In this document: piece after piece, positions 739 through 63,934 of the stretch | How positions within the stretch are numbered: the first letter of the stretch is position 1 | Layout of the letters: every line of letters starts with the position of its first letter | Assembly: GCA_016875165.1 (NCBI GenBank) | Contig: VGSF01000008.1 | Span: forward strand, 1 to 64,000 | Direction: 5' to 3' | Length of the DNA: 64,000 bases | Source: Deltaproteobacteria bacterium | GTDB lineage: Bacteria > Desulfobacterota > SM23-61 | Program-made: the position numbers and the translations under genes | The notes under the pieces: generated by a model | Told to the model about the DNA's origin: nothing | Database searches by the model: none | What the model saw: only the letters and a program-made list of their open reading frames with translations

Positions 739-1458
739 ATGAAAGAAAAAATCATCGGTATTCTGGGTGGTATGGGCCCGGAAGCAACGCTTTACATGTT
801 TGGGAGGATCCTGGCGAATACCCCGGCTTCCAAGGATCAGGAGCACCTCAGAGTGATAATCGATAACAACCCCAAAATCCCTGAAAGATTACCAGCCATA
901 CTTGGAGCGGGAGAAAATCCTGTCCCCATGATGGTGGAAAGCGCTTTATCTCTAAAAAGGGCCGGAGTTGATTTTATTGTAATTCCTTGTGTTTCTGCCC
1001 ACTTCTTTCTTAAAGAGCTTAAACAAGACATTAATATCCCCATTCTTTCCATTGTGGATAAGACCGCCGAATACGTAAAATTTGCCCATCCAAATATAAA
1101 AACCATCGGGCTTCTGGCAGCTGAAGGAGCTATTCGCGGTGAACTATTCCAGGATAGATTCGGAAGGGAGGCAATTAAAGTTTTGCTTCCAGAAGCCGCC
1201 GATTTGCAAAAACTCATGGCGGCCATCTTCCGCATTAAAAATACGAAAGCAGGACTCGACCGAAAAATAATAAAAGAGGAATTGATAGAAATTTCTTACC
1301 GACTCATTAACAGGGGAGCTGAAGGAATCGTTGTCGGATGCACCGAAGTATCAATTGTTGTCGGCCCTGGCGATTTAAAAGTGCCCATTTTCGACGTCTT
1401 AACAATTTTAGCCCGCGCGGCAATAGAAGAAGCAGGGATAAAGCCATGCGGGACTTGA
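739..1458 (+). CDS. Aspartate/glutamate racemase family protein
   Basis: IGILGGMGPEAT N-terminus, Cys motifs PCVSAHFF and VGCTE. Confidence 0.9.
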   Translation: MKEKIIGILGGMGPEATLYMFGRILANTPASKDQEHLRVIIDNNPKIPERLPAILGAGENPVPMMVESALSLKRAGVDFIVIPCVSAHFFLKELKQDINIPILSIVDKTAEYVKFAHPNIKTIGLLAAEGAIRGELFQDRFGREAIKVLLPEAADLQKLMAAIFRIKNTKAGLDRKIIKEELIEISYRLINRGAEGIVVGCTEVSIVVGPGDLKVPIFDVLTILARAAIEEAGIKPCGT

Positions 1459-1574
1459 AATTTTTATTTACTTACAAAACGGGCGTGAGTAAATATTTTT
1501 TAACTTTGCATAAGTTTACATAATACATCTTATCGGGCCTTATTTGGAAATTGATAATTTTGCCGTACCTGAGG

Positions 1575-1735
1575 TTGATGAACTCGTAAAAAGCCCTGTT
1601 CCTGTCATTGCGAGAAGTTCCGCATTGGCGGGACGACGAGGCAATCTTGTATTTTTGTTTTCGGGCACTTATAAAAACGAGATTGCTTCGCTGGCGCTCG
1701 CAATGACCCTTTCGCGACTTTTTACGAGATCATTA
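1575..1735. repeat. Repeat family A
   Basis: gatgaactcgtaaaaagccc...cattgcgag...ctcgcaatgac...gactttttacgagatcatt. Confidence 0.85.
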
Positions 1736-1749
1736 TTTGGCGCTAAATA

Positions 1750-2934
1750 TCAAGAATGTATTTTTCTGATAGCCCGGGCGAACCCGTCCATGGCCCCTTC
1801 GATGACTCGATCTTCCACGCAATACGCCAACCGAAAGTAACCAGGGCTTCCAAAGCCGGTCCCCGGCACAGCAAGGATGTTTTCTTTAAGAAGAGTCTGC
1901 ACAAAAAGGACATCATCTGGAACTGGGGATTTGGGAAATAAATAAAATGCCCCTTCAGGTTTGGTGAAAGAATACCCGGCATTGCCAAGGCCCTGGCAAA
2001 GGAGATCCCTTTTCCTGCGGTATTCCGATATATCCACTACCGCTCCCTGAACTCGTGGCAGAATACGCTGCATAAAAGCTGGGGCATTGACAAATCCTAA
2101 AACTCGATTGCTGAAAGTTAAACCATCGATTACCTGCTGGGTATTTTCCATGCGGGGGTTTACAGCAATAAATCCAATTCGTTCGCCGGGTAATGATAAG
2201 TCTTTGGAATAGGAAGTAATCAATAAACTATAAGGGTAAGCCTGAAGGACGCTGGGAACTTTCATCCCATCATAGACAAGTTTGCTGTATGGTTCATCCG
2301 AAAGTAAGTAAATAGGCCGACCAAATTTTTCCTTCATTCTTAGCAAAAATTCTCCTAATGCTCTCACGCTTTTCTCATCATAGAGGCGGCCAGAAGGATT
2401 ATTCGGGGAATTAATAATGATTGCTTTGGTTTTTTGGCTGATCCCGGCTTCTATCGCCATAATATTTAAAGAAAAGTCTTCATTAGTATTAACTAACTTA
2501 CCATTTCCATTGTGGTTATCGATATAAAATAAATATTCCACGAAATAAGGTTTAAGGACAATCACTTCATCCCCGGCATCCAGCAAAGTCTTCAGAGCCA
2601 CATTGAGGCCGCCTCCGGCCCCGCAGGTGATGATGATATTTTCCCATGATATTTTAATTCCGTGTTCTTGCGAAAGATAACTTCCCACTGCCTCCCGCGT
2701 TTCTCGCAAACCGGCATTGGGCATGTAAGCATGTTTGCCCGGGCGCTGATCTTCGACGATCTCCCGCATAGCCCGCTTAACTATTTCCGGCGGTTCCAGA
2801 TTGGGATTGCCCAGACTGAAATCAAAAACCTTATCCGCGCCGAATTTGCTTTTAAGCTCCAAACCCTGCTCAAACATCTTGCGGATCCAGGATGACCGCT
2901 CCATATAACCTTTGACTTTATCAGATATTGACAT
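1750..2934 (-). CDS. PLP-dependent aminotransferase, class I/II
   Basis: FSLGNPNLEPP, SPNNPSG, SYSKDLSLPGERIGF PLP-lysine region. Confidence 0.9.
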   Translation of the reverse strand: MSISDKVKGYMERSSWIRKMFEQGLELKSKFGADKVFDFSLGNPNLEPPEIVKRAMREIVEDQRPGKHAYMPNAGLRETREAVGSYLSQEHGIKISWENIIITCGAGGGLNVALKTLLDAGDEVIVLKPYFVEYLFYIDNHNGNGKLVNTNEDFSLNIMAIEAGISQKTKAIIINSPNNPSGRLYDEKSVRALGEFLLRMKEKFGRPIYLLSDEPYSKLVYDGMKVPSVLQAYPYSLLITSYSKDLSLPGERIGFIAVNPRMENTQQVIDGLTFSNRVLGFVNAPAFMQRILPRVQGAVVDISEYRRKRDLLCQGLGNAGYSFTKPEGAFYLFPKSPVPDDVLFVQTLLKENILAVPGTGFGSPGYFRLAYCVEDRVIEGAMDGFARAIRKIHS

Positions 2935-2953
2935 GCCTCCTCCTTTATAGATT

Positions 2954-4024
2954 TCAACGAAACTCGGGTAGGATTTCTTCCAGCACGCGCAAAACTTCGG
3001 CCATCTCCTGTCTCGTTCCGATAGTCATGCGCACCCCGTCCCGCAGGCCTTCCTCATCATAAAAACGGGTTAAAACTTTACGGGAAAAAAGAGCTTCATA
3101 AAATTTCACTCCCCTTCCCTTCTGCGGTTTGGGGAAAATAAAATTAGCCCGGGAAGGAATTATTCGATATCCAAGGGCAGCGGCTTCTTTGCTGAACCAG
3201 TCCCGCGTCTCGATAATCTGCCTGATATTTTTTTGGAAATATTCCTGATCTTCCAGCGCAGCCATGACCAGGGCCTGGGTCATTCTGGTAACATTGAACG
3301 GATCTTTAACTTTAAACATTTCCGAAATCAATTTTTCGTTTCCAATGGCATACCCAAAGCGCACTCCAGCCAGGGAATAAGATTTAGAAACGGTTCGGAC
3401 GATAATTACATTTGGGCAATTGCGGGCAATTTCCAAGGCGTTTTCATCGGCAAATTCAGCATAAGCTTCGTCGACCACAAAGACCCCTTTTATCTTCTGG
3501 GCCATTTGCAGGACCAGAGCTGTTGAATAGGCAAAACCAACCGGCGAATTGGGATTGGCCAGAAAAAAAACTCTCAAGCCCTCTAACAGAGGAGGCGGCT
3601 CTCCGTAAGGCTCAGCCACCGGCAAAGAAACAACCTTTGCTCCGTGGATTACTGCCAATACCCGGTACAGGGGAAAAGTGGGTTCGTAAAAACCCGCAGC
3701 CTCCCCGGGCGGGGTAAAGGTCCTAAGGATAATGTTCAAAATATCGTCGGAGCCATTGCCACAGATGATCTGACCCGGCGAAAACCCGTAAAGGGCCCCC
3801 AACTTTTGGCGCAGCTCCCAACTATCCGGATCCGGATAAAGCCGCAAGTCTTCATAGGAAAGGTTCTGAAGGATTTCTTTAACCCCGGGCGAAGGCGGAA
3901 AGGGGTTTTCATTACTATTTAATTTAATATAATTTTCCCTGGGGTCAGGCTGAAAACCTGGGACATAGCCCTTCATCGAAGCGATACAATTTCTGGCATA
4001 GTTCATGGCTCTATATTCCCTCAT
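2954..4024 (-). CDS. hisC: Histidinol-phosphate aminotransferase
   Basis: KLNSNENPFPPSPGV, NPNSPVG, RTVSKSYSLAGVRFGYAIG; ORF upstream of Met4024 is translated repeat C, so the start is moved to 4024. Confidence 0.85.
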   Translation of the reverse strand: MREYRAMNYARNCIASMKGYVPGFQPDPRENYIKLNSNENPFPPSPGVKEILQNLSYEDLRLYPDPDSWELRQKLGALYGFSPGQIICGNGSDDILNIILRTFTPPGEAAGFYEPTFPLYRVLAVIHGAKVVSLPVAEPYGEPPPLLEGLRVFFLANPNSPVGFAYSTALVLQMAQKIKGVFVVDEAYAEFADENALEIARNCPNVIIVRTVSKSYSLAGVRFGYAIGNEKLISEMFKVKDPFNVTRMTQALVMAALEDQEYFQKNIRQIIETRDWFSKEAAALGYRIIPSRANFIFPKPQKGRGVKFYEALFSRKVLTRFYDEEGLRDGVRMTIGTRQEMAEVLRVLEEILPEFR

Positions 4025-4029
4025 TTTTA

Positions 4030-4300
4030 GTAACACTTTAGCTCTTTGAAAAAAGGTGTGTTGTAAGGGCCAAGGGATTCCAAGGGCCGGGGGCCAGACC
4101 GGAACGCTTGGAATCATAAGGCGCTGATTCCTCCGCATATGGGGCGGGCAAGAACCCCCGCCTCCTCCGGAGGAAAAGGTCTTCTGTCTTCGTGGCCAAG
4201 CGGAAACCCAACCAATGTTTCCGGCGCGTTCCGCTCTAACCCCCGGCCCTCAACTAAGGCTTTTATACCATTTTTTTAAAATCGCTAAACTGATACGAAT
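4030..4300. repeat. Repeat family C, full length
   Basis: TAACACTTTAGCTCTTTGAAAAAAGG...AAATCGCTAAACTGATAC; reverse-oriented near-identical copy at 13953-14219, deleted copies near 44886 and 54787. Confidence 0.85.
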
Positions 4301-4435
4301 TTTTTAATTTTACCTATGCTTATCAGTGGTTACCTGTGTCTTAATTTTTTTTAAAATATTTCTTTATATCTCTGCGATCTCTGTGGTGAATAAATTTTGG
4401 TTGTAGCTCTGCCGTGCTGTGATGAATGAACCACA

Positions 4436-25768: not shown

Positions 25769-25990
25769 TTAGCGGCGGCGGATTCCGGCATGGTAGCAGC
25801 AGGTGGCATTTTTGAAATTGTTGTCAAAGATGCGCGTCTGGCCGTCTCTAAACATTACTTTTACATAGGATAATCCCCCTTGAACGAGAGAGTTCTTCTC
25901 CTCTACTACAAGACCCGAACCCCACTCAGGGTAGCGGTGGTGCACAACCCAATCACCGACCTTTAAATACAAAAACCTCGTCTCCTCCAT
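25769..25990 (-). CDS. DUF3553-like small protein
   Basis: VGDWVVHHRYPEWGSGLVVEE...VKVMFRDGQTRIF. Confidence 0.6.
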   Translation of the reverse strand: MEETRFLYLKVGDWVVHHRYPEWGSGLVVEEKNSLVQGGLSYVKVMFRDGQTRIFDNNFKNATCCYHAGIRRR

Positions 25991-26151
25991 ATTTTGCTTT
26001 ATACCAAACTATTTCCGGAAAGGCAATTTGAAAACACTTTCTCCATCAATTAAGCCGCGTCCTCCACATCCACGCTTTCTGTTTTATGGCCATTTTTATG
26101 AATACCTAATTCCCTAAGCCCAACCTTAAACTGATTAAAAAGCAGCTGTAT

Positions 26152-29100
26152 TCAGACAAATGCTTCGCTACAGACGATACGGGGAATAGACCTGTCCTCG
26201 AATTCCAGGCTTCGCCGGGACGTCACGTCTTTCAGATTGTGCTGGTCGTAGATTCGGATCAGATTTTTGTAGAGTGCCTCGCCAGCGATGGCATTCCGCC
26301 GCAAATGGTTCAACTCGCGCTTGACCGCTCCGGTCAAAGCGCCTCTGAAAGCCTTTTCCAGAATGTTAACGTTAGCCTTGATCTCTTCTTCTATCGTGGC
26401 TTCAAAAAGGATCCTGAGTTCACGAAGAGCATAGAGTTGACCGTGCGTTAGATTGAAGGTATGCTTGCGCTCGGCTTCCCGGTGTTTGACTTCCTCGGCA
26501 AATGTCCGTTGAACGGCCATGACCGCCTTGTTGTACCCGTCCGGCAGGTCGGCGGCCTTTGCATCGGGAGCGCATTTGACTGTACCGACAACCCTCGGAA
26601 CATCGCGGGAAACAACAGCGCCTTTATCATCGAGCAGGAAGAGCTGCTGAAAGCGGCCAGCCTGGCAGAAAACAAAAAAGCCTTTTTGCAGAGAAGGTCG
26701 CGCCGTTCGGATGCCATCGCGCAGAGTGGCAATACGTTCAAACTCCGCAGGGTCTTCTTTCCGCAACTGTCGTAAAATTTCTTCGGCTTCGTTCAGGTCC
26801 AGAAATTCGTCTTCCGGTTTACCCCAGAGCTCCAACTGCACCGGGCCGCCTCCCTGTGTTTCGTAAATGGCATACATCGCCTCGGGGTTCAGCCGTTCGG
26901 TCTCGTCAAGGATGTTGGAGTCTTCCCCAATGGTGTCGTGAATCTCTTGAATCCGGTTGTGCAACTTATCGTACAGCTTCAGATTCTTCTCGATTCCCAC
27001 TTCCGGCAAGAAGTTAAAAGCAAAGATAACCTCATGTTCCGATCCGATACGGTCTATGCGCCCGAAGCGTTGAATCAGCCGCACCGGGTTCCAGTGCAGA
27101 TCGTAATTGATGATGTTGTCGCAGTCCTGGAGGTTAAGACCTTCGGCCAGAACGTCGGTGGCGACGACGGTCATGAGCTCCGCTTCGCCTTTGGCAAAGC
27201 GATACTCCGGGTTGGCTTTCGGTGCGAACCGTCCGACCACGCGCGCTTTGCTCTTGTCCCCGCTGTAGATGACCTCCATGTCGGGGAAGCGGTCGCCGGG
27301 GTTCAGATTGGCATAGAGATACTTCGCCGTGTCGGCGTACTGCGTGAAGATCAACCGTTTCGTACCCTTCAAAGGCTTGTCGGTTAGGCGCGTTTTGAGC
27401 GTTTGGAGTTTGGCGTCTTTTTCGGGGGTGATGGGTGCAACCAGTTTCTGGACGGTCTTCAAAAGCTCGATGTCGTGCGCGATGTGTTGGCGCAGGGTAT
27501 CCGTGTCGAAGTCTTTTGCATCGTAGCGTTGCGATACCGCACGCAAGGCGTCCATGAAGTCGGCCTCTTCGAGCGTATCGCTTCCATAGAGGATGTACTG
27601 CGCTTCCTCGCCCGCCGGGATAAAACCCTCGTCAATGGATTTGAGAAATGATTCGTGAATATTGAGCAACCGGCGGATGGTCTCCTGAAAGGCGTAAACA
27701 CTCGACTCAAACCGCTTGAACAAGAGAACCCGCATCAGGCCGCGCAGATTGGCCCCGGCCCGGTGCAGGCTGATGTACGGTTCTTTCTTCTGTTTATCAG
27801 CGTGTACGTAGTGCCACAGGCCATAGCGCGCGTAGGTCAGTTCCCCTGCCGTAGCTTTGGCCGGTTTGCCCTTCCGGGACTTGCCAAGAAAGCCGCGCAA
27901 CTGCTGGTAAAGTCCCTGGTAGGTGTCTTCGATGCTGTAGGCAATGGTTTGAAGGTTCCGCTGCAAGAAGAACTGGTGCTTCCCGCCAACGAGCACATAG
28001 GCTTTCCGTTTACCGTCCAAGTATTCCTGAAAACGGCAGGGGTCAACCGGCTCGTGCGTCTCCGCGTCGAAACCATACCAACGCAAGATATGGTTGCGCG
28101 TGCGCCGGATAAGGATATTGGCCAGCAAGTCGGGCAGTTTCTTTTCCCCGCGCTCAATCAGTTTGAAGAACTCTTTCAAATTCGGCGGATCAATGGGCAG
28201 GTCCGTCCGGTCGTCCTGATGGAAAAGCTTGATCTGGTGATAAACGTCCCACGCGCTTTTGTTTCGGGGCGTGGCGGTCAGGAAACAGCAACGGCGGCCG
28301 GTTGAAAGGAAAGTTTGAACTACCTTATAGCGCTGGGTGTCGGGATGCCTAAAGTTGTGGCTTTCGTCCACCAGTACAAAATCACGGTCTTTGTAGTGGA
28401 AATCCTTCAGAAGCTTGGTCACGCCGTCGTTATCGTCTTCCCGGAGGTACCCCATGGAAAGGACTCGGGCGTTGAGTTGGTAAACCTCATTGTACCGTTC
28501 CCACATTTCCTTGAGCGGGGCGGGACAAATGACCACGGGGCGTGAGTGGTCCGTACGCTCAAAATGCTTCACGATGGCCGCGCCGATGTAGCTCTTGCCA
28601 AGGCCGACTACGTCCGCAACAAACCCGCCGCCGAAATCCCGGATCATCTGAATCGACTGCCGGACGGCGACCTTTTGGAAATTCGCCAGTTTGCGGAATA
28701 TCTCGTCATCCCAAAGGAGTTCTTGTTCTTCCTCGCCCTCCAGCCGATCTTTTACGAGGGCAAAGAGCGTCTTCATGTAGATGTCGTACGGTCTCACCCG
28801 CGCCGCCGCCCAGGATTCCTTGAGTTCCACCATCAGCGTTTCGTCGAATTCCTGTGCTTCCTTCCAAAGATCATCGAACCAGCGAACAAGCTCCTGGTGG
28901 TTCTGGTTCCCCTGAACGATCACATTCAACTCGGTGTTGTGAGTCAACCCAGCCAGGGTCAAGTTGGAAGATCCCACAACCGCAATACCCTTTTCGTGGC
29001 GTTCAATCTCTTTGCCAACCAGATCAAACACTTTACCGTAATCGCAAATGTATGCTTTCGCGTGGAGTCGTCCTTTCGTATAAACGCGGACCTTCAGGCG

Positions 29101-29496
29101 CTTGTCCTGGATCATCTGAATCAGTCCGGCAATCAACGCTTCCGCTTCGTCCGTCTGGTCCATCAACTCGACTGAGTTCCGCAGATTCCCGGCTGTCTCC
29201 TGGGCCATCTTCCCGGCCTCCGTGCGCTTGGGGTAAGCCTGTCGCTCGACCTCTTCCGCCGCGAGATCAAGGCGGCGATAGCCTTCCGCCAGCATTTCAA
29301 CCGTCTCGCGGTTGGTCGTGTTTCCAATGAGGAGCCGGAGTTCTTTAAGGTTCAAGAGACGTTTGGCGACACTCGTTAACCCGGATAGGAAAAGGTAGCC
29401 AACGGCAAACCGTGCCCGTTCGCTGGATCCGAGCATCTGGCCGAGGTGGTCAACCAGTTTCTCTGTTCGATTGTCGATGATGTCATGGGCGGGCAT
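26152..29496 (-). CDS. PLD-domain SNF2-family helicase (predicted defence/restriction protein)
   Basis: N-terminal PLD motif LHAKAY...GSSNLT; helicase motifs DVVGLGKS, LVDESH, FLTATP, C-terminal RIGSE / QRFGRIDRIG. Confidence 0.88.
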   Translation of the reverse strand: MPAHDIIDNRTEKLVDHLGQMLGSSERARFAVGYLFLSGLTSVAKRLLNLKELRLLIGNTTNRETVEMLAEGYRRLDLAAEEVERQAYPKRTEAGKMAQETAGNLRNSVELMDQTDEAEALIAGLIQMIQDKRLKVRVYTKGRLHAKAYICDYGKVFDLVGKEIERHEKGIAVVGSSNLTLAGLTHNTELNVIVQGNQNHQELVRWFDDLWKEAQEFDETLMVELKESWAAARVRPYDIYMKTLFALVKDRLEGEEEQELLWDDEIFRKLANFQKVAVRQSIQMIRDFGGGFVADVVGLGKSYIGAAIVKHFERTDHSRPVVICPAPLKEMWERYNEVYQLNARVLSMGYLREDDNDGVTKLLKDFHYKDRDFVLVDESHNFRHPDTQRYKVVQTFLSTGRRCCFLTATPRNKSAWDVYHQIKLFHQDDRTDLPIDPPNLKEFFKLIERGEKKLPDLLANILIRRTRNHILRWYGFDAETHEPVDPCRFQEYLDGKRKAYVLVGGKHQFFLQRNLQTIAYSIEDTYQGLYQQLRGFLGKSRKGKPAKATAGELTYARYGLWHYVHADKQKKEPYISLHRAGANLRGLMRVLLFKRFESSVYAFQETIRRLLNIHESFLKSIDEGFIPAGEEAQYILYGSDTLEEADFMDALRAVSQRYDAKDFDTDTLRQHIAHDIELLKTVQKLVAPITPEKDAKLQTLKTRLTDKPLKGTKRLIFTQYADTAKYLYANLNPGDRFPDMEVIYSGDKSKARVVGRFAPKANPEYRFAKGEAELMTVVATDVLAEGLNLQDCDNIINYDLHWNPVRLIQRFGRIDRIGSEHEVIFAFNFLPEVGIEKNLKLYDKLHNRIQEIHDTIGEDSNILDETERLNPEAMYAIYETQGGGPVQLELWGKPEDEFLDLNEAEEILRQLRKEDPAEFERIATLRDGIRTARPSLQKGFFVFCQAGRFQQLFLLDDKGAVVSRDVPRVVGTVKCAPDAKAADLPDGYNKAVMAVQRTFAEEVKHREAERKHTFNLTHGQLYALRELRILFEATIEEEIKANVNILEKAFRGALTGAVKRELNHLRRNAIAGEALYKNLIRIYDQHNLKDVTSRRSLEFEDRSIPRIVCSEAFV

Positions 29497-29499
29497 GGG

Positions 29500-29835
29500 T
29501 TATGCGTCTTCTGTAATGGTGATCGGCTGTCCCTCACGCCGGGCGATCTCAATGATTGCGCTGGATTCATCCTCGCGCCATTGCCGCTCTCCACAGGGGA
29601 TCGGTTCGATGCGATTATCCGTCCTCGCCGCAACACGCCAAAGAAGGTCAATATCTGCGCGATCCCGCATGTCATCGAACCGGGGAGAAACAACCAATAA
29701 ATCGATATCGCTCCATGAACCCGGTATACCTCTGACCTGTGATCCGAAAACCACCCCGAAGTTGATGATCAGTCCCTGATCCTGCAAGGCCCGGAGGTAG
29801 TCTCTGACGCCTTTCACAACAGATTTGTCAACCAC
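29500..29835 (-). CDS. MNT-type nucleotidyltransferase (antitoxin-like)
   Basis: GSQVRGIPGSWSDID fits GSX10DXD; overlaps the HEPN gene by 22 bp. Confidence 0.82.
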   Translation of the reverse strand: MVDKSVVKGVRDYLRALQDQGLIINFGVVFGSQVRGIPGSWSDIDLLVVSPRFDDMRDRADIDLLWRVAARTDNRIEPIPCGERQWREDESSAIIEIARREGQPITITEDA

Positions 29836-30194
29836 CGGAACACCTCCTCTGCCCGTTTCATATACCGGGCTGCTTCCTCGCTCGTTGGCGGCTTCGTCAA
29901 CATTTCGGGGTAGCGTCCTTCAATATGGAATGCATTCATTTCAGCCAGTATGTCAGTCTGCACCAAACTCGAAACAACACCCGCCAAATCAATCAGGCGA
30001 TTCAGATTGTGGATGCGAGGCGCCAAATCACCCGTATTTTTGCAAACAAGTGCCTTGAGCATCTTTTCCAGGGCCAGATGAGCGAAAAACAAACCGTGGC
30101 GGGTTCGACCGCTTTCAAGAAGCTGCTGAGCTACCGCCCAATCTTCTTCGGCGTTTTCCTTCCAACAGGAGATCTGTTTTTTGATATCAACCAT
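29814..30194 (-). CDS. HEPN domain protein (partner of MNT)
   Basis: HLALEKMLKALVCKNTG...RIHNLNRLIDLA...ARYMKRAEEVFRWL. Confidence 0.8.
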   Translation of the reverse strand: MVDIKKQISCWKENAEEDWAVAQQLLESGRTRHGLFFAHLALEKMLKALVCKNTGDLAPRIHNLNRLIDLAGVVSSLVQTDILAEMNAFHIEGRYPEMLTKPPTSEEAARYMKRAEEVFRWLTNLL

Positions 30195-30343
30195 AATTAT
30201 TTTCCCCAAACAGAATTATGGAATCTTAGGTTAATAAATTCAACATATTTCTAAGAAGTTGCGCAACCGCATCCCCCATTAACCCGTACAGTTGCAACAC
30301 GGCTCTTTCCCATCCAAACCTGCCGCTTGCCCATCGCCATATC

Positions 30344-30368
30344 CTCCTGCCGGCTTGCCCGGCAGGAG
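30344..30368. repeat. Perfect 10-bp-stem hairpin just 3' of the transposase gene
   Basis: CTCCTGCCGG-CTTGC-CCGGCAGGAG; no T-run on the minus strand. Confidence 0.6.
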
Positions 30369-30369
30369 A

Positions 30370-31314
30370 TTACGACCGCCTGCCAATGCGCCGAATGACG
30401 TCCAAATCATACTCACTGAACGTTCCCACGTAAAACCTATCCTGCCACACCCGGCACCCCGCGGCCCTCGCCAGCCCATTCTGAAACGTCAATGCAATCT
30501 CTTCCGGCGACCGCGCGATATTCCCGCGCAACGCCATATGGACATGGTCCGGCATCACCGACAAGGCTGCGATCCGGTGGCCGCCCTCCGCCGCCACGTC
30601 CAAAGCCGCGTCGCACATCCGTCCGAGCTGCTCGCGGGCGCTAATCCTGAACCGATCCGCCGTCACTAACACGAGATGGAGGTCGTACCAATACCGCCCG
30701 CTGTTAGATTCCGACGGTTCAGCCAGCCGCACATCGTCGGCGACAACCGTGAAGCTGCGCATGGTCTCTCGAAAACGCGGGTCGGCGAAGTCCCCTTTCC
30801 CGATCTGGCCGCGAATATACCTCTGGACCACGTCGGAGGTGTTCTCGCCGAGACTGCGGAAGGATACTTTGCGGCTGAAATCCACCGGCGTGCCGTGCTT
30901 GCGCAGCGCGTGCTGCAGGCGCCCTTTTACGCGCATGCAGAAGAACGTCGGGCTCACCTGCGGGGTGACGCTGAAAAGAATCTGCACCTTTTCAGCCGTG
31001 GCGTGGGGTTGAAGCAGGCTCAGGCCGTCTTTTTCCCACAAGGACGCGGTTTCGCGCGCAACGGCGGCGCTCTGCGGGGGCAACGTCGCGCCGGCGGTCG
31101 GCCAGCCGGTCCAGTCGTAGTGGAGCAGGAAAGCCGGTTTGAGGTTGTGGCCGGTGTATAGGGCTTGCGGCGACCTTGTGCCGCCAGGGCCGAATTTTTG
31201 TGTCCGGCGACGCAAGATCGCCGGGACGCCGGTCTCATTCGTTCCCGGTGATCTCGTCGGCTGGGCGTTGGCCTCATGGGCTCCTGGTGATCTCGTCGTC
31301 GGGGCGCTAGTCAC
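30370..31314 (-). CDS. IS200/RAYT-like (Y1-type) transposase
   Basis: SVMPDHVHMALRGN (HUH region), FQNGLARAAGCRVWQDRFYVGTFSEYD; GTG start overlaps the MTase stop; true start uncertain. Confidence 0.72.
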   Translation of the reverse strand: MTSAPTTRSPGAHEANAQPTRSPGTNETGVPAILRRRTQKFGPGGTRSPQALYTGHNLKPAFLLHYDWTGWPTAGATLPPQSAAVARETASLWEKDGLSLLQPHATAEKVQILFSVTPQVSPTFFCMRVKGRLQHALRKHGTPVDFSRKVSFRSLGENTSDVVQRYIRGQIGKGDFADPRFRETMRSFTVVADDVRLAEPSESNSGRYWYDLHLVLVTADRFRISAREQLGRMCDAALDVAAEGGHRIAALSVMPDHVHMALRGNIARSPEEIALTFQNGLARAAGCRVWQDRFYVGTFSEYDLDVIRRIGRRS

Positions 31315-31388
31315 CTCCGCTCCCGGTGACCATGCGTCACCGGGGCCGAAATTTCGCTTCCGGTGACCCGAGGTCGCCGGGAAGCATC
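31163..31388. repeat. 39-bp tandem array, about 5.8 units, with internal palindromes
   Basis: Units start at 31163, 31202, 31241, 31280, 31319, 31358; e.g. GCTCCCGGTGACCATGCGTCACCGGGGCCGAAATTTCGC; stem CCCGGTGAC/GTCACCGGG at 31322-31344. Confidence 0.8.
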
Positions 31389-32795
31389 AAAACCTTTCAG
31401 AGCCGTGCCCAAAAATGCCACCAACGCTTCGTCCACCATGTACTCCACGATCTCGCGCGGGGTGTAGAACGAGCCGGTCTGTTTTCTGGCGGTGGCGCCG
31501 GTTTCAGGATTATAGGCGGCAAGCAGGTTTTCGAACACCTTGCCGGAAAGCTCCGGATCGAGGGCGACTTCCTGCTCGAAGGGCGTGTTTTCCTCAATCG
31601 TGAAATGGTACTGTTGGAGAGTATGGATCAGCCCGCGCACCCGGACCTTTCTGAACTTCCTGTCGCCATAATCCGCGCTGAGGTCTTCTTCGCGCTCAGG
31701 TCCAAAGAACAGGAAATCCGGCACAACCGGCTGGCTGTCCGGCCGTCGGGAGAATCCGTCAATGCGCACATAACGGGGCCTGGCGTTTTCGCCCAGATCC
31801 TTATCCAGGCACTCGAACAGGCCGCCATTGAGGAATGGGATGTTCTTGAACAGCGCCAGCGCATCGCCGGGCTTCTTAAAAAAATCGCGATGGCGGTAAA
31901 GACTGTGCGCCATAAAGTTCTGCTCGTCCCGCGCCCAGCCGCGCTTGTCCATTTCCGTGTTCAACGTGGCGAAGAACAGATTCTGCAGGATCGCCTTGTA
32001 GAAGACGGAGTCCTTCCCGGCATCCTTGTCTGTCGCGAACCCATCGAGCAGTCCAGCCAGGCGTCGCTCATCAAACAGCACCTCCGGAATCAGGCCTTTT
32101 TCCTTCACGAACCAGCAAAAAATCAACCGCGTGATCATGCGGATCACGCCGATATGGTCGTGCCCGTCAGCCTCCTTGGGTGCGTCCTTGGGGAAACGAA
32201 CATGCTTCAGCGCCCAGAAATACCAGTTGGCGAGCTCCTTGTAGAACGCTTTGGTGACCGACTCGACATCAAAGGCGTCATCGTGGCGTTTTTGAATCTC
32301 CAGCGCGGGGATGCCGAACAGGTCTTTCCCCATCAACGCGAGATCCATCATCTGCAGCCGCTCGGCGGCCGTGCGCAAACCGCTGTCGGCTCGCACGGTA
32401 ATCCGGCGGAAAAGTCGCCGCTTCTCTGCCTTCTCGTCATACTTGATGTTCAGAAAATGCCAGGCGGATTGCGCCTTGTCGGAAAAAACGAACAGGCAGT
32501 AAGGATGTTCGCGGATCAACTGGTTGACGATGGGCCGCTCAAGGTTCCTCTGAAGGCTGGCGGAGGCCAGGCGGCAATACACCATATGAAACGCACTATC
32601 CTCGCCGCCGCTCGCGAACAGGATGGGATCATCGACCAGCGCCTTGCGGGCGGAATCCGGCCAGCCGCGCATGCTGAGCGGCTTGTTTTCGCGCTCGTAG
32701 TTCAGTTCCTCCCAGAAAAGCTTTTTAAGGCCGCCCAGATCCCGCAAGTTCCGAAGGATATTCAGAACCATCTGTTGTCTTTCAATCTGGCCCAT
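31311..32795 (-). pseudogene. N-terminal part of an Eco57I/PglX-like adenine-specific DNA methyltransferase, truncated
   Basis: FNGGLFECLD, DPELSGKVFENLLAAYNPE..ARKQTGSFYTPREIVEYMVDEAL precedes the MTase domain in this family; then reads into the 39-bp array and stops; no NPPY motif follows. Confidence 0.72.
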
Positions 32796-32905
32796 TCATC
32801 ACGCTCATTTTGGAAGACGTTGATTCTTTATGGTTGTAAGGAAAATCCGGAATTTACCGCATCATAGCAAAAACTATTTACAAGGTCAAAACCTTAAAAT
32901 CAAGG

Positions 32906-33167
32906 CTAACTATCCCTTCTTTTTTGAGAATATCTCTGGAATAGGACCCTGGTTTTTTCAATTTCTTGGGCAGAGTGGTCGAAAGCCGTTTGGTATTCTT
33001 CAAGGAATTTTGAGACCGGGAAAGTTTTTCTTAGGTCTCTTTTTTCTGCTAAATTTTTCAATCTTCTTCCCACACTTCCAGCACTTCAGTGGTTTTTTCT
33101 TAATCAAACACAAACGCGCCTTTGTGGCAAAATTTTGCGTGTGACAATGGGAACAAGAATAAATCAT
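32906..33167 (-). pseudogene. Small zinc-ribbon protein gene with an apparent frameshift
   Basis: 33167-33000: MIYSCSHCHTQNFATKARLCLIKKKPLKCWKCGKKIEKFSRKKRPKKNFPGLKIP*; adjacent frame continues LEEYQTAFDHSAQEIEKTRVLFQRYSQKRRDS* to 32906. Confidence 0.5.
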
Positions 33168-54900: not shown

Positions 54901-56286
54901 TTAAAGAAGTTCAACGCGCAGGGCTTTTTTTGTTTCCGGCTTCAGACGTATTCGATGATCGAGGCGGACGCCGGCAACCCAGAGGAGTTGATCCTCCTTG
55001 AAAAGTAAAGGAATTCTTTTGCGCTGGGGTGCGGGAATTTTACAATCGATGAAAAGGTCTTTGACTTTTTTCGCCCCCTCCATCCCCAGTGGTTGGAGGC
55101 GGTCTCCAGGCCGAAAGGAGCGAACGGTCAGGGGAAAATCAATATCGTCGAAATCCAGCAGGGCAATGTTGGAAATGTTTTGGGGCCTTATCCGGGGCGC
55201 CTGGGTTGCTAACATCTTGAAGCGCATTTCCCGGCCGATTTCCGGAATTTCCAGACAACCCTCCCCCGAAACAGAATATTCAAAAGGGATAATCTCTTTC
55301 AGGGACTTGGCAAAGGTAAGGGCCCGGTAGGCCTTAGCCACGCATAGCCCTTGAGGAAGCTTAAGGGTTTTATTGGGGTCCGGGCTCTGCAGGATATTCT
55401 CGATGGTCAGGATATGATTGAATCCCACCCGCCTAAGGTGGCCCAGTATTTTTTCAATGGCATACCGGAAAGATCGCAGCCGGATGGGTAACGACTGGGC
55501 GAGCAGGGAGGGGATGTCCAGGGTTATGGATTCCTTTTTCTGATTCCGGACCAGCGCCGGAAATCTTTCTTCCAAGAGGTTTTGCCAGCAGGCTTCTTCC
55601 GCCCGGAAGAGATCAGCCATTTGCGCCAGGGTCTGCCGCAACCGGGGATTATACTGCTCAAGGACAGGAAGGAGATCATGGCGTATCCGGTTGCGCAGAA
55701 ACTTAAGGGAACGATTGGTCGGATCGGTCAGGAAAGCCACTTTCTTTTCAAAAAGGAAGGCTTCAATTTCTTCCCGCCAGGATTCAATCAGCGGCCGGAT
55801 AAAAAAATCGCCGCGCACAGGAGGGATCCCCGATAGTCCGCGGGTTCCGGAACCACGGAGGATACGCATGATCATGGATTCGGCCTGGTCATCGGCCGTA
55901 TGTCCCAGGGCAATCTTCGCGGCCTTCTGACTCATAGCTGCTTCCAGCAGAAAGGAGTACCGGGCTTCCCTGGCAGCTTCCTGCAGAGTGAGACGTTGTT
56001 CTTTTTGCTTGGCCCGTATATCCACCTGGCGAGTTATGAAAGGTATTCCCAGGTCCGCTGAGGCTTTGCGCACAAAAGATTTTTCTTCTTCCCCTTCCGG
56101 GCGAAGTCCATGGTTCAAATGGGCAACCACCAGGGAAAGATGAAATTCCCGGCGCAGGTCCCAGAGCACATGGAGAAGAGCCATGGAGTCAGCCCCTCCG
56201 GAAACGGCGACCACTAGGCGTTCTCCGGGCTGGAGCATCTCATATTTTTTGATTGTTTTTAAGACATTCAGGACAAAGGGTTGCAT
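54901..56286 (-). CDS. tilS: tRNA(Ile)-lysidine synthase
   Basis: VVAVSGGADSMALLHVLWDL, TilS C-terminal region. Confidence 0.94.
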   Translation of the reverse strand: MQPFVLNVLKTIKKYEMLQPGERLVVAVSGGADSMALLHVLWDLRREFHLSLVVAHLNHGLRPEGEEEKSFVRKASADLGIPFITRQVDIRAKQKEQRLTLQEAAREARYSFLLEAAMSQKAAKIALGHTADDQAESMIMRILRGSGTRGLSGIPPVRGDFFIRPLIESWREEIEAFLFEKKVAFLTDPTNRSLKFLRNRIRHDLLPVLEQYNPRLRQTLAQMADLFRAEEACWQNLLEERFPALVRNQKKESITLDIPSLLAQSLPIRLRSFRYAIEKILGHLRRVGFNHILTIENILQSPDPNKTLKLPQGLCVAKAYRALTFAKSLKEIIPFEYSVSGEGCLEIPEIGREMRFKMLATQAPRIRPQNISNIALLDFDDIDFPLTVRSFRPGDRLQPLGMEGAKKVKDLFIDCKIPAPQRKRIPLLFKEDQLLWVAGVRLDHRIRLKPETKKALRVELL

Positions 56287-56804
56287 GGCTTTTCCTGACT
56301 TTCCTCGTACCTGGCCAGCGTGAAAAGTAAATCGGCAAGACGGTTCAGGAACCTAAGCACTTCGATATTGGCGATGATTTTTTCCTGTAGCAATCGGACG
56401 GCTTTCCGTTCGGCCCGGCGGATGATGGCCCTGGCTAAGTCAACGGAGGCTGAAGCGATTGTCTCTCCGGGTAAAATGAACTCTTCTTTTAGGACAACCT
56501 CCTTCTGTATCTCGGAGAGGAGGCGTTCCAGCCGGTCAACTTGTTCGGTGGTAATCCGGTAGGGATACTTTTGGACGTCTTCAGTGGCAGTGGCTAGCTC
56601 GGCGCCAAGGATGAGCAAGTCTCTTTGTATGGTCAGGATAATCTCCTTGGTCTTCGGCCGGGTTGCCGCCGCTCTGGCGATCCCCAGCGCAGAACTGGCC
56701 TCGTCCAGGGTCCCGTAGGCTTCGGGCCTGGGCCCGGATTTGGATATCCTCTGGCCGCCCATAAGGCTGGTCATGCCCCGATCTCCCTTCTTAGAAAACT
56801 TCAT
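56268..56804 (-). CDS. Cob(I)yrinic acid a,c-diamide adenosyltransferase, PduO type
   Basis: GDRGMTSLMGGQRISKSGPRPEAYGTLDEASSALGIARA; RRAERKAVRL; FLNRLADLLFTLAR. Confidence 0.92.
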   Translation of the reverse strand: MKFSKKGDRGMTSLMGGQRISKSGPRPEAYGTLDEASSALGIARAAATRPKTKEIILTIQRDLLILGAELATATEDVQKYPYRITTEQVDRLERLLSEIQKEVVLKEEFILPGETIASASVDLARAIIRRAERKAVRLLQEKIIANIEVLRFLNRLADLLFTLARYEESQEKPCNPLS

Positions 56805-56822
56805 GGAACCCCTTCCCTGCTT

Positions 56823-57596
56823 TTACTTTTTTTTTGGTGGAGTCACCTCAGATGCGCCGGGCGATAAATGTTTGGCCAAAAGGTCTTTTAGCCTTTGCAC
56901 TTCGCTTGGCCGAAGGTAACGGTATTCCCCGGGTTTAAGCCTTCCGATACTAAGCCCGGCAAAGGCCACCCGCTTAAGCTTTAATACCGGGTAGCCCAGC
57001 TTTTCCCACATCCTTTTCACCTGGCGATTTCTGCCTTCATGTAAAACCATTTCCAGCCAGAGGTTATCTTCTGTCTCCTGGAAGGGCCTGATGCGGCAGG
57101 GCGCCGTGGGTCCGTCTTCCAGGCGGATGCCCCGGCTTAATCTGCTGATTTCTTCGGGACCGGGTTTCCCTTTCACTTTCACCCGGTAAATACGGGAGAT
57201 GCCATAGGAAGGATGGGATAAACGATGGGCCATGGCCCCATCGTCGGTCAAGAGGAGGAAACCCTCGGCATCAAAGTCAAGCCGGCCCACCGGAAACAGC
57301 CGGGGTTTCGTTTCCTTTATTAGATCCAGGACCGTTGGTCTTCCTTCCGGGTCGGCCACGGTCGTCACCGTACCCTTAGGCTTGTTTAGCAGCAGGTAAA
57401 CTTTTGCGGAGGAAGACAGGGATATTCGCCGTCCGTCAACCTTGATATGGTCATGAAAAGGATCCGCTTTATCTCCGACCTGGGCGAGGCGTCCATTGAC
57501 CGTGACTCGCGCTTCCCGGATCAAATCTTCAGCCTTGCGCCGGGAAGCAACCCCAGATTCAGAAAGAATCTTTTGCAGCCTCTGCAGGTGGCTCAT
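56823..57596 (-). CDS. rluB: 23S rRNA pseudouridine synthase, RluB/RsuA family
   Basis: S4 domain RLQKILSESGVASRRKAEDLI; PVGRLDFDAEGFLLLTDDG; EGRNRQVKRM. Confidence 0.93.
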   Translation of the reverse strand: MSHLQRLQKILSESGVASRRKAEDLIREARVTVNGRLAQVGDKADPFHDHIKVDGRRISLSSSAKVYLLLNKPKGTVTTVADPEGRPTVLDLIKETKPRLFPVGRLDFDAEGFLLLTDDGAMAHRLSHPSYGISRIYRVKVKGKPGPEEISRLSRGIRLEDGPTAPCRIRPFQETEDNLWLEMVLHEGRNRQVKRMWEKLGYPVLKLKRVAFAGLSIGRLKPGEYRYLRPSEVQRLKDLLAKHLSPGASEVTPPKKK

Positions 57597-58227
57597 CGAT
57601 TTCTCCATCCTCACCTAACTGAATTGCCAACCGGGGATCTGAATTTGTTCCCATCTCTCCTTCGGCTTGCTCGCCGAAAGGCAAAAGCGATTCTGCCGCA
57701 GGGGGCCCCAATCCTTCTATGTCCTTAAGGGTGGGAAGGCTGGACAGGTCTTTTAATCCGAACATTTCCAGGAACTGTCGGGAAGTGCCATATACCAGCG
57801 GTTTACCCGGAACATCTTTCTTACCGAGGATTTTTATCAGTTTCTTATCCAATAGGGTTCGCAAAACGCCCCCGGAATCCACCCCCCGGATTTTTTCTAT
57901 TTCCCCGCGCACAAGGGGTTGTTTGTAGGCTATAATGGCCAGAGTCTCCAATGCCGGCTGGCTGAGATGAGCCGGCTTGCCCTTCTTCAATTTCTTTATC
58001 CATTCGGCGTGCTCGGGGCGGGTTCGGAATTGGTATCCTTCAGCCACTTCAACCAGAGTAAAACCGCGCTTCGCTTGGTTGTACTCTTCCGCCATCTCGG
58101 CCAGCAGCCGCTGGATTTCCTTTTTGCTAACCTCGCCCAGAACTTCTTTGATCCGGTCCAGACTTAGGGGGTTCTCCGAGACGAAGATTAATGATTCCAC
58201 TATGGCCTTCCGTTTATTATCATCCAC
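57559..58227 (-). CDS. scpB: Segregation and condensation protein B
   Basis: GTG start (VDDNKRKAIVESLIFVSENPLSLDRIKEVLG) next to the scpA stop; ETLAIIAYKQPLVRGEIEKIRGVDSGGVLRTL. Confidence 0.93.
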   Translation of the reverse strand: MDDNKRKAIVESLIFVSENPLSLDRIKEVLGEVSKKEIQRLLAEMAEEYNQAKRGFTLVEVAEGYQFRTRPEHAEWIKKLKKGKPAHLSQPALETLAIIAYKQPLVRGEIEKIRGVDSGGVLRTLLDKKLIKILGKKDVPGKPLVYGTSRQFLEMFGLKDLSSLPTLKDIEGLGPPAAESLLPFGEQAEGEMGTNSDPRLAIQLGEDGEIDEPPAEAAKDSF

Positions 58228-58228
58228 T

Positions 58229-59056
58229 TCACAGAATCCTTTCTTCGATCTTCTTCTGGCCTTCTTCCCGTCCCATCGGCGAGAAAATCCTGATGGGCCC
58301 AAAAGATTCGGCTTGAAACACGTTTATCATGCGCAGGCGCATTAGCTCCAGGATGGCTAAAAAGGTTACGATAATCTCGCCGCGAGAAGCCAATGAAGTA
58401 AAAAGCTCTTTAAAGGTCAGGCTCTCCGTTTCCCAGAGCCGCTCCATGATCTGGTTGATTTTGTCTTTGATACTCAGATGATCAAGGGAGATTTCCTGAA
58501 ACTCCTCAGGGGGGATTCCCTGGAGGACTTTCTTAATAGCCTCCAGCAGGTCGTACAAGGTAACTTCTCCGGTCAAAGCGTCCTCGGTTTCTTCCAGAAG
58601 TTTTTCCGCAAAAAATTTACGGGCAAAGACTTCCCGGTCCAGCAGGCAACCTTTGGCCAAGTCGGAAGCCGCCTCTTTGAAGCGCTGGTATTCTAAGAGC
58701 CGGCGGACCAATTCGGCCCTGGGGTCTTCTAACTCCCCTTCTTGATCCTCTCCCGAGGGCTCTTCCTCCGAGGGGGGCAAGAGCATCTTAGATTTAATGT
58801 GCAACAGAGTAGCCGCCATCAGCAGAAACTCGCCGGCCACGTCCAGATTCAAAGTTTTCATCATCTCCAGGTATTCCATGTACTGCTGGGTGATCACCAA
58901 AATGGGAATGTCATAAATATCAATCTCATTTTTTTTGATCAGGTGCAGCAGAAGGTCCAGAGGGCCCTCAAATATTTCCAGCTTGACCTGAAGAGGCAAT
59001 TCCGGCTGCGCATATTCGTTGCTCAGGTGATTTGGTTCCATAGATTCTCTTAACAT
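58229..59056 (-). CDS. scpA: Segregation and condensation protein A
   Basis: LEIFEGPLDLLLHLIKKNEIDIYDIPI. Confidence 0.95.
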   Translation of the reverse strand: MLRESMEPNHLSNEYAQPELPLQVKLEIFEGPLDLLLHLIKKNEIDIYDIPILVITQQYMEYLEMMKTLNLDVAGEFLLMAATLLHIKSKMLLPPSEEEPSGEDQEGELEDPRAELVRRLLEYQRFKEAASDLAKGCLLDREVFARKFFAEKLLEETEDALTGEVTLYDLLEAIKKVLQGIPPEEFQEISLDHLSIKDKINQIMERLWETESLTFKELFTSLASRGEIIVTFLAILELMRLRMINVFQAESFGPIRIFSPMGREEGQKKIEERIL

Positions 59057-59068
59057 GAACGATCTTCC

Positions 59069-60055
59069 TCAGGTTATTTTCATGGCCGCGCGCACTTCTT
59101 CCATGGTCCGCGAGGCGACCAACCGAGCTCTCTGGCAGCCATCTTCCAGCACTTCATCCACCAGGCAAGGGTTTTGCAGGTAACGGCTTCGTTGCTCATG
59201 GATAGGAGTTAAATAAGCCACAATGTTCTCGGCCAGATTCTTTTTATCCTCCACGCAGCCAATCGCCCCCCGCCGGCAATCTACCCGGACCTGTTCAACG
59301 GCCTCCGGCGAGCTGTAAACCCGGTGGAAGGCGAAGACGTTGCAGATGTCCGGGTTGCCGGGGTCGCCCCGCTTGATGCGGTTGGGGTCGGTGAACATCT
59401 GGGCCACCTTTTGCCGGATTTCCTGGGGAGGGTCGGATATGTAAATGGCGTTATCATAGCTCTTGCTCATCTTGCGCCCGTCGATGCCTAAAACCTTGGG
59501 AACCTCCGTCAGCATCGGCTCCGGATGCGGAAAGACCGGGGCGTATAAAAAATTGAACCGGCGGGTAATTTCCCGGGAGAGTTCCACATGGGGAACCTGG
59601 TCTATGCCTACCGGGACCTTGTGGGCTTTGTAAATAATAATGTCGGCGGTCTGAAGCAGTGGGTAGCCCAGAAAACCGTAGGTGGATAGGTCTCGGTTGG
59701 TTATTTCCTGTTGCTGCTCCTTGTAAGTGGGCACGCGCTCCAGCCAGGCAAGGGGCGTGATCATCGAAAGAAGCAGATGGAGTTCAGCGTGCTCCTTGAT
59801 CCGGGACTGGACAAAGAGAACGCATTTTTCCGGAGAAAGGCCGACGCTCAGCCAATCGGTGGTCATTTCCCGGATGCTTTCCTGGATGCTCTCCGTGCTA
59901 TTGTATTCCGTCGTCAGGGCATGCCAGTCCGCCGCAAAGAAAAAACAGTCGTAATCCTCCTGGAGTTTTTTCCAGTTTTCTAAGGCTCCGACCAAATTAC
60001 CCAGGTGAAGTTTCCCCGATGGCCGCATTCCACTAAGCACACGCTGCTTGGACAT
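59069..60055 (-). CDS. trpS: Tryptophanyl-tRNA synthetase
   Basis: VLSGMRPSGKLHLGNLVGAL, KMSKSYDN. Confidence 0.96.
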   Translation of the reverse strand: MSKQRVLSGMRPSGKLHLGNLVGALENWKKLQEDYDCFFFAADWHALTTEYNSTESIQESIREMTTDWLSVGLSPEKCVLFVQSRIKEHAELHLLLSMITPLAWLERVPTYKEQQQEITNRDLSTYGFLGYPLLQTADIIIYKAHKVPVGIDQVPHVELSREITRRFNFLYAPVFPHPEPMLTEVPKVLGIDGRKMSKSYDNAIYISDPPQEIRQKVAQMFTDPNRIKRGDPGNPDICNVFAFHRVYSSPEAVEQVRVDCRRGAIGCVEDKKNLAENIVAYLTPIHEQRSRYLQNPCLVDEVLEDGCQRARLVASRTMEEVRAAMKIT

Positions 60056-60090
60056 TCGCTTATCTATATCTCCTTTCTCTTAATTTAATA

Positions 60091-62739: not shown

Positions 62740-62743
62740 GATT

Positions 62744-63643
62744 TCAACCCCGGGGATGGTATTTCTGATGGATTTGCTTCAGGTGGTCCCGGGAAACATG
62801 GGTATATATCTGGGTGGTGGCAATATCTACATGTCCGAGCAGGGATTGAACGGACCTTAAATCCGCCCCGCCTTCCAAAAGGTGGGTGGCGAATGAATGG
62901 CGGAGTATATGGGGGGTCAGGCGTTTGGGAATGCCTGCCGACGTGGCATACTTCTTAATGATTTTCCAGAACCCCTGGCGGGTGATTCCCCTTCCTCCCT
63001 TTCCGAGAAAAAGGGTAGCGTCGGACGATTTCATGGCCAAAAGGATCCGCGGTCCTCTCAGGTAACCTAACAACGCCTGCCGGGCCGCCATGCCGATGGG
63101 CACAATTCGCTCTTTCGATCCTTTCCCCCGGGTGCGCAGATACCCCACTTCCAGGTTCACGTCGTTTAACGAGAGATGAATCAATTCCGAAACGCGCAGG
63201 CCGGTAGCGTAAAGAAGTTCCAGCATAGCCCGGTCCCGAATCCCCAAAGGCTGCAGAGGATCAGGCTGTCGCAATAAATCCTCCACCTCAACGGAGGTCA
63301 ATACCGAAGGAAGCTTGGGGACAACCCGGGGGGTGCGCAGGCGATTCAGGGGGTTTTCTTCTATAGCGCGCTCCTGGAGCAGAAATTTATGAAAACCCTT
63401 CAGGGCTGAAAGGGTACGAGCCTGGCTTCTTGCCGAAAAGCCTTTTCCCCGCAGGTGCTTAAAGTATTTCAAGGTATGGTCGGCCGAGCTGCCTCCGATA
63501 TGGGATATTCCCTGCTCCATCAAAAAAATGGCATACCCCTGAAGATCATGGGCATAAGCTTCGAGAGTATTCCGGCTCAACCCTTTTTCTACGGTTACGT
63601 AGTGTAAATAACTATCTATCCAGTTATCGAAGTTATCGGCCAT
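62744..63643 (-). CDS. xerD: Tyrosine recombinase XerD/XerC family
   Basis: ATGLRVSELI, GKGSKERIVPIG, HILRHSFATHLLEGG, LGHVDIATTQIYTHV. Confidence 0.93.
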   Translation of the reverse strand: MADNFDNWIDSYLHYVTVEKGLSRNTLEAYAHDLQGYAIFLMEQGISHIGGSSADHTLKYFKHLRGKGFSARSQARTLSALKGFHKFLLQERAIEENPLNRLRTPRVVPKLPSVLTSVEVEDLLRQPDPLQPLGIRDRAMLELLYATGLRVSELIHLSLNDVNLEVGYLRTRGKGSKERIVPIGMAARQALLGYLRGPRILLAMKSSDATLFLGKGGRGITRQGFWKIIKKYATSAGIPKRLTPHILRHSFATHLLEGGADLRSVQSLLGHVDIATTQIYTHVSRDHLKQIHQKYHPRG

Positions 63644-63741
63644 TATAAAAAATCTTCTCCATGCGCATTCTATTCTAACACATCGGGTTCTTTTTTCAAT
63701 TTCTTTCTCCTTGGCCCGTCTCTCACCAATTCTTGGTATCA

Positions 63742-63934
63742 GGAGCCACTTGCAAAAGTATTTTTTGGTGGTTCGACAAGCTTGTCCTGAGCGAACCGTT
63801 CACCCTTCGAGAACCTCAGGGCGATGGGTGAGTCGAAGGGCTCACCACGAACGGAAAAACTAAATAATTTCAACCTAAGCCCGTTCACCCTGAGCCTGTC
63901 GAAGGGTAAATTACGGACTTTTGCAAGAAGCTCA
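63742..63934. repeat. Repeat family B outer ends with expanded GTTCGACAAGC/GCCTGTCGAAGGG inner module
   Basis: ggagccacttgcaaaagtatttttt...cggacttttgcaagaagctc; about 60 bp longer inside than 13794-13923. Confidence 0.8.

Follow-up and report, generated by a model that had tools for sequence, protein, structure and literature searches.

A cluster of minus-strand genes in a deltaproteobacterial draft genome is probably what a recent break has left of a two-gene, restriction-like defence operon, one that paired a PglX/Eco57I-type N6-adenine methylase with a helicase that joins a PLD nuclease domain to an SNF2 motor (PLD-SNF2 helicase). The window, meaning the whole stretch of DNA analysed here, comprises the first 64 kb of the 84.8-kb contig C8 of genome G000 (G000:C8; GenBank VGSF01000008.1), a draft in 234 contigs that is 99% complete and 7% contaminated; G, C and L numbers denote genomes, contigs and loci throughout. 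We confirmed the minus-strand order of open reading frames (ORFs) as methylase fragment, Y1 transposase, HEPN, minimal nucleotidyltransferase (MNT) and PLD-SNF2 helicase (Table 1), in agreement with a preliminary description of the window that had placed the helicase, the MNT/HEPN pair and the methylase on one strand at these positions. The same description offered two fates for the locus, a decaying system or one that now works without its own methylase. Of these, decay fits best, and the second is retained as an unlikely rival that we weigh below.

The main evidence comes from relatives of the locus. A helicase search yielded 70 loci, distributed over deltaproteobacterial metagenome-assembled genomes (MAGs), Nitrospirae, Verrucomicrobia/Kiritimatiellae/Lentisphaerae, Cyanobacteria, Chloroflexi, Poribacteria and others. 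In 33 of them a methylase ORF of 947-1290 aa with an NPPY motif (NPPW in one) lies upstream of the helicase on the same strand, and this pairing of methylase and PLD-SNF2 helicase in intact relatives supports the restriction-like module that had been proposed for the window. The closest relative, L043 from a Deltaproteobacteria MAG, encodes in order the methylase (797-4339), a 619-aa GapS1-like protein, TcmP, a radical-SAM protein resembling spore photoproduct lyase (SPL-like), Phd, ParE, HEPN, MNT and the helicase. The layout of the intact operon is thus methylase first, cargo in the middle and helicase last. The L043 methylase carries an Eco57I domain (residues 577-825) with NPPY at 734-737, and a TaqI-like specificity domain at 1026-1115.

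Against this reference, the methylase of the window stops short. Alignment with L043 runs from the methylase start to window position 31422 (to 31410 with L051) and then meets a gap; beyond it, similarity resumes with a 51-bp match (30331-30281), the 3' end of the SPL-like gene, and continues without interruption from 30243 across HEPN, MNT and the helicase. In place of about 6.2 kb of L043, the window therefore has about 1.07 kb of other sequence, composed of a Y1 transposase ORF and repetitive extragenic palindrome (REP)-like repeats, and the Phd/ParE stretch of L043 has no counterpart. L043 being a relative and not the ancestor, the gene content of the window's ancestor is in part reconstructed. 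The point at which homology ends agrees with the earlier view that the methylase keeps its N-terminal region and then ends, and the remnant lacks the S-adenosylmethionine (SAM) motif (L043 residues 510-516), the NPPY motif and the specificity domain. Two ways in which a short methylase could have been the normal state were considered in the preliminary description, namely relatives that consistently lack the C-terminus and a C-terminal subunit encoded elsewhere. As compared with its relatives, the truncation is secondary, because the 33 loci have a methylase of full length with NPP(Y/W); and a search of the G000 genome found no orthologous methylase C-terminus, the matches being distant paralogues in other loci. 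We propose that insertion of the REP/Y1 element, with an associated deletion, caused the break. Both the element at the break, with its transposase ORF and palindromes, and the loss of cargo genes together with the methylase half had been overlooked before.

Table 1. Features of the broken operon in the window
Feature	Position	Strand	Remarks
PLD-SNF2 helicase	26152-29496	-	1114 aa, intact; Pfam PLDc_2 + SNF2 + Helicase_C
MNT (minimal nucleotidyltransferase)	29500-29835	-	111 aa; 94% identity to L043
HEPN protein	29814-30209	-	131 aa; 91% identity to L043
3' end remnant of SPL-like radical-SAM gene	30281-30331	-	51 bp, 84% identity to L043:8384-8434
REP-like palindrome CTCCTGCCGG-GCAA(G)-CCGGCAGGAG	30344-30368	.	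25 bp, right side of Y1 element; 0 expected in shuffles
IS200-like Y1 transposase ORF	30370-31314	-	314 aa; Pfam Y1_Tnp 54.5 bits (cut-off 23)
Two REP-like palindromes	31319-31384	.	Left side of Y1 element; 0 expected in shuffles
PglX/Eco57I-type N6-adenine methylase remnant	31398-32795	-	N-terminal 466 codons
59-bp sequence with promoter TTGACC-17-TATGAT (32889-32861)	32832-32890	-	Recurs on C25, C113, C77

The methylase-fragment ORF (31311-32795, minus strand, 494 aa) has no Pfam match and was matched only by the N-terminal parts of PADLOC type IIG models. Its homologous part shows little sign of age. Pairwise ratios of nonsynonymous to synonymous substitution rates (dN/dS) are 0.11-0.14, and codon changes specific to the window (37 silent, 16 replacement) resemble those specific to L043 (53 silent, 21 replacement); of about 95 conserved N-domain positions almost none has changed, and the differences are conservative. 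Judged by these substitutions, the remnant is so far free of relaxed selection, and therefore the break looks recent. When the remnant is modelled, residues 399-452 stay below a confidence of 50, as would be expected of a piece severed from its catalytic core. A nuclease fold in the N-domain was considered and rejected, since the structure search gave no significant match and the resolvase-like matches (E ~0.7) were unusable.

The other retained genes are intact, as had been noted before: helicase, MNT and HEPN are full ORFs with their Pfam domains, and the helicase keeps all its motifs, including the HKD motif HAKAYICD (residue 145), Walker A GLGKS, DESH and QRFGRIDRIG. Full-length relatives of the helicase, 54-92% identical, occur in about 50 loci, with further partial ones, and the L043 helicase is 90% identical. 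Compared with three relatives, the window helicase has pairwise dN/dS values of 0.07-0.09; for HEPN and for MNT the value is 0.11. The adjacent HEPN and MNT domains both exceed their Pfam cut-offs (HEPN 73.3 bits against 22; NTP_transf_2 for MNT 30 bits against 21), and a search of HEPN against the PDB returned no match.

In an intact system, the methylase with its recognition domain would mark self DNA and supply site recognition, and the helicase would translocate so that its PLD domain could cut unmarked DNA. Methylase loss would then disarm restriction rather than kill the host: because the recognition domain sits in the lost part of the methylase, the remaining helicase would be untargeted rather than lethal, and the HEPN/MNT pair may persist alone as a putative toxin-antitoxin module. 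Three other relatives, L051, L107 and L115, are broken in other ways, with the helicase broken too, which shows that loci of this type often decay. In L051 (7483-12775) the methylase frame runs into a deletion and is joined near helicase residue 190. Several points nevertheless weigh against decay of the window's locus. Its helicase, HEPN and MNT are conserved and show no damage, the dependence of the helicase on the methylase is something that we infer, and the element was assigned as the cause of the deletion from its position. Moreover, the cyanobacterial loci L069 (no trace of a methylase), L076 (its 5' 221 aa) and L099 (its 3' ~200 aa) retain the helicase ORF in full, at 1122-1135 codons. 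The first two form a sister pair (support 1.0) whose helicases differ by a synonymous divergence (dS) of 0.42 at a dN/dS of 0.056, and the nearest methylase in the L069 genome is only 29% identical. Together with the intact motifs of the window helicase, these loci speak for a helicase that has become independent of its own methylase, acts by itself or together with HEPN/MNT, and senses the invader otherwise than by missing methylation. We regard this as unlikely here. The relatives were sampled through the helicase, so that helicase loss with the methylase kept is under-sampled; the deletion breakpoints of L069 and L076 differ, so that the methylase need not have been lost before their split; another methylase in the L076 genome, 35-40% identical, could act in trans; and the purifying selection on the window helicase mostly predates the break. 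It is likewise doubtful that methylase loss in the window, L069, L076 and L099 marks a recurrent switch to methylation-independent helicase defence instead of decay. That the methylase has been lost repeatedly where the helicase stayed intact does make it possible to ask if a motor nuclease of restriction type can work in the absence of its modification enzyme.

Two further explanations concern the truncation itself. An error of assembly or binning, for which a draft metagenome in 234 contigs with 7% contamination would leave room, is very improbable: the Y1 ORF and its DNA each occur only once in G000, which leaves no repeat to misjoin, the same operon lies on both sides of the break with the SPL-like remnant of a lost gene beside the element, and an 87%-identical element is present in another genome. 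It is hardly credible that the retained N-terminal domain serves as a stand-alone subunit and that the truncation is functional. The near-invariance of its conserved positions, and the methylases of L071, L075 and L081, which are divided into an N-part and a C-part ORF, could be cited in favour; yet in those three loci the C-part is present next door, the conservation is equally explained by a recent truncation, the domain has no significant fold match, and its residues 399-452 are modelled at low confidence. A recent break of a once complete operon remains our preferred explanation.

Among the relatives, the interval between methylase and helicase varies from 0 to 8.5 kb and forms a slot for changing cargo. 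Pfam annotation of 120 slot ORFs most frequently returned PIN (13), Uma2 (6), XisI/XisH, Schlafen, AAA_21/AAA_15, MNT, HEPN and SPL, and PADLOC matched several defence-candidate families, including AriA and MADS3. The slot of L021 encodes a NACHT protein, that of L045 a reverse transcriptase with kinship to group II intron and AbiA/DRT enzymes, and that of L086 an AIPR/MzaE-like protein. Partial copies of the start of the helicase gene lie in the slot upstream of the full gene in L043 (9110-9138, 29 bp), L042 (475-505, 31 bp) and L054 (3009-3194, 186 bp), and L042 and L043 have the same sequence before the scar and different cargo after it. The pattern suggests that cargo is swapped by recombination at the helicase 5' end. 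In L021 (9433-9777), a short piece of HEPN and an MNT-like start continue into an ORF for a MerR-type DNA-binding protein that immediately precedes the helicase, which looks as though the HEPN/MNT pair had been replaced. Slot contents such as the reverse transcriptase, NACHT ATPase, Schlafen, OLD-like ATPases, TcmP/SPL and toxin-antitoxin pairs are candidate back-up defences. Back-up effectors within such operons are already known for BREX and BR systems (PMC12839542). In the open-access literature we came across no description of a comparable cargo slot.

Methylases in two pieces were observed in L071 (5512-8576), L075 (6139-9173) and L081 (6177-9266), where two ORFs meet near the border between N-domain and catalytic core and the helicase is intact; they could reflect frameshifts or a stop, or be true split subunits. 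The G000 bin itself holds three more helicase-methylase loci with the helicase first (L029, L030 and L031 on C127, C124 and C130), two of them with a full NPPY methylase and one interrupted by the contig end.

The element at the break belongs to an unusual transposase family. The first ~50 aa of the Y1 ORF are a translation of REP DNA, and the true start is probably near 31164; residue numbers below follow alignment A3 and are raised by 50 for the 314-aa ORF. Across 25 aligned members, the N-terminal half has an invariant Tyr116 and no HUH motif, and the C-terminal half has an invariant Asp206-His207-x-His209 and no tyrosine helix. Known TnpA transposases are single-domain dimers in which each active site combines the HUH motif of one subunit with the tyrosine of the other. 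Since TnpA dimers combine these residues across subunits, the natural reading is one predicted composite active site in each chain. That the chain joins two Y1-like halves draws on residue conservation and on the repeated strand-helix pattern of an AlphaFold2 model (pLDDT 90, pTM 0.88), and sequence similarity between the halves is weak (hhalign probability 10%). The best Foldseek matches were ISDra2, IS608 and other TnpA chains, covering about half of the query. With IS200/IS605 TnpA and REP-associated tyrosine transposases the protein shares the Y1_Tnp domain, the TnpA fold and flanking REP palindromes; it differs from IS200/IS605 TnpA in having HUH and Tyr in separate halves of one chain, and neither NCBI model scores it above its curated cut-off. 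The open-access literature yielded no paper describing two fused Y1 domains. If true, the fusion would give a naturally occurring TnpA in one chain, with a single predicted active site.

Of 395 genomes of the same phylum, only G000 and G053 gave a close match to the Y1 protein, a third match being marginal. The wider family includes loci L130-L152, L116 and L117; relatives occur in 31 of 387 Planctomycetes-Verrucomicrobia-Chlamydiae (PVC)-type genomes around a Lentisphaerae MAG, and a search of plasmids found none. The second Y1/REP copy (L115:188-1115, on G053:C245) lies ~50 bp upstream of a helicase gene of the same family, so that both close same-phylum copies are located in this operon type. 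The L115 helicase is internally deleted, its first ~22 codons being joined to codon ~1037. That Y1 is a usual cargo of the operon was rejected, since the loci of the 70 relatives gave no Y1 match; for this reason we treat it as an invading element, although it sits in this operon in both G000 and G053.

The setting of the island was defined by related genomes. Judged by gene order, the island is an insertion into the chromosome, because G004 of the same family has an empty site (L127) that reads ABC permease, ~230 bp, DUF3553-like gene, 423-aa gene and recJ and is free of defence genes; those of the window sit exactly between the permease and the DUF3553-like gene. In a same-genus genome (L126), shared sequence extends into the intergenic stretch to ~33108. 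The island had been drawn at 25769-33167, which holds for the defence genes and not for the ORF at 25769-25990 (73 aa; weak Pfam match to DUF3553), which lies outside because it is a conserved chromosomal neighbour also kept at the empty site of the relative.

About 66 bp upstream of the methylase start lies a sigma-70-type promoter that matches the consensus at 10 of 12 positions, within a 59-bp sequence with copies at three other places in the genome (L002, L003 and L004). The copy on C77 is upstream of a WYL-domain regulator gene, that on C113 upstream of an ORF with the same start sequence and no Pfam match, with a SEFIR/TIR gene nearby, and that on C25 upstream of an ORF6N gene. Because WYL proteins often control defence operons, shared control of the methylase operon and the other genes that follow the repeat is a lead, not a result.

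We finally compared the family with named systems. The closest is the DUF499-centred BR Type-2 system (Hma; PMC12839542), which likewise combines a PglX-like N6-methylase, a helicase with an N-terminal HKD/PLD nuclease and an SNF2 motor, and additional nuclease and toxin modules in the operon; the N6-adenine PglX-type methylase is present in the intact relatives and broken in the window. Membership was rejected, because DUF499 (PF04465) is missing from the loci checked, with none among the flanking genes tested or slot genes shown, and is absent from 14 of 20 host genomes, including that of L043. The operon here also runs from methylase through cargo to helicase. A DUF3780 protein was not among the 25 of 68 slot families listed nor the ten flanking genes scanned. 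Contig C9 of the G000 bin encodes an SNF2 helicase of 1189 aa close to a DUF499 protein of 1123 aa, both within ~8.5 kb (55343-63855), and this is probably a DUF499-centred system. The family shares with DISARM an SNF2 helicase related to DrmD, a PLD nuclease and a methylase; it differs in that the window helicase reaches 136.4 bits against the DrmD model (cut-off 610), the L043 slot has neither DrmA nor DrmB, and PLD is fused to the helicase. From BREX it is separated by PglX model scores of at most 71 bits against cut-offs of 400-900, and by the lack of PglZ and BrxC among the L043 operon genes.

Single-protein and toxin-antitoxin models gave partial likenesses. The helicase reached 146.9 bits with the PLD anti-phage protein NF042964 (curated cut-off 1100), and its best PADLOC model was C3a139 (HKD+Snf2; E 5e-78, residues 5-901), a single-protein model with no partner methylase or cargo slot; no paper carrying this identifier was found in the open-access literature. 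Adjacent HEPN and MNT genes are also known from toxin-antitoxin pairs, in which MNT is usually the first gene (PMC3710099), unlike here, where HEPN precedes MNT; the window pair falls below the NCBI MntA cut-off. The family would act in the manner of a BREX-related or DISARM-like restriction system, but defining tests of the named systems gave negative results, and therefore we describe the intact family as a DUF499-independent, BREX-related, restriction-like methylase/PLD-SNF2 variant. The picture that emerges is that of a methylase-helicase pair with an exchangeable defence slot, which occurs across many phyla without the ATPase by which its closest named relatives are defined.

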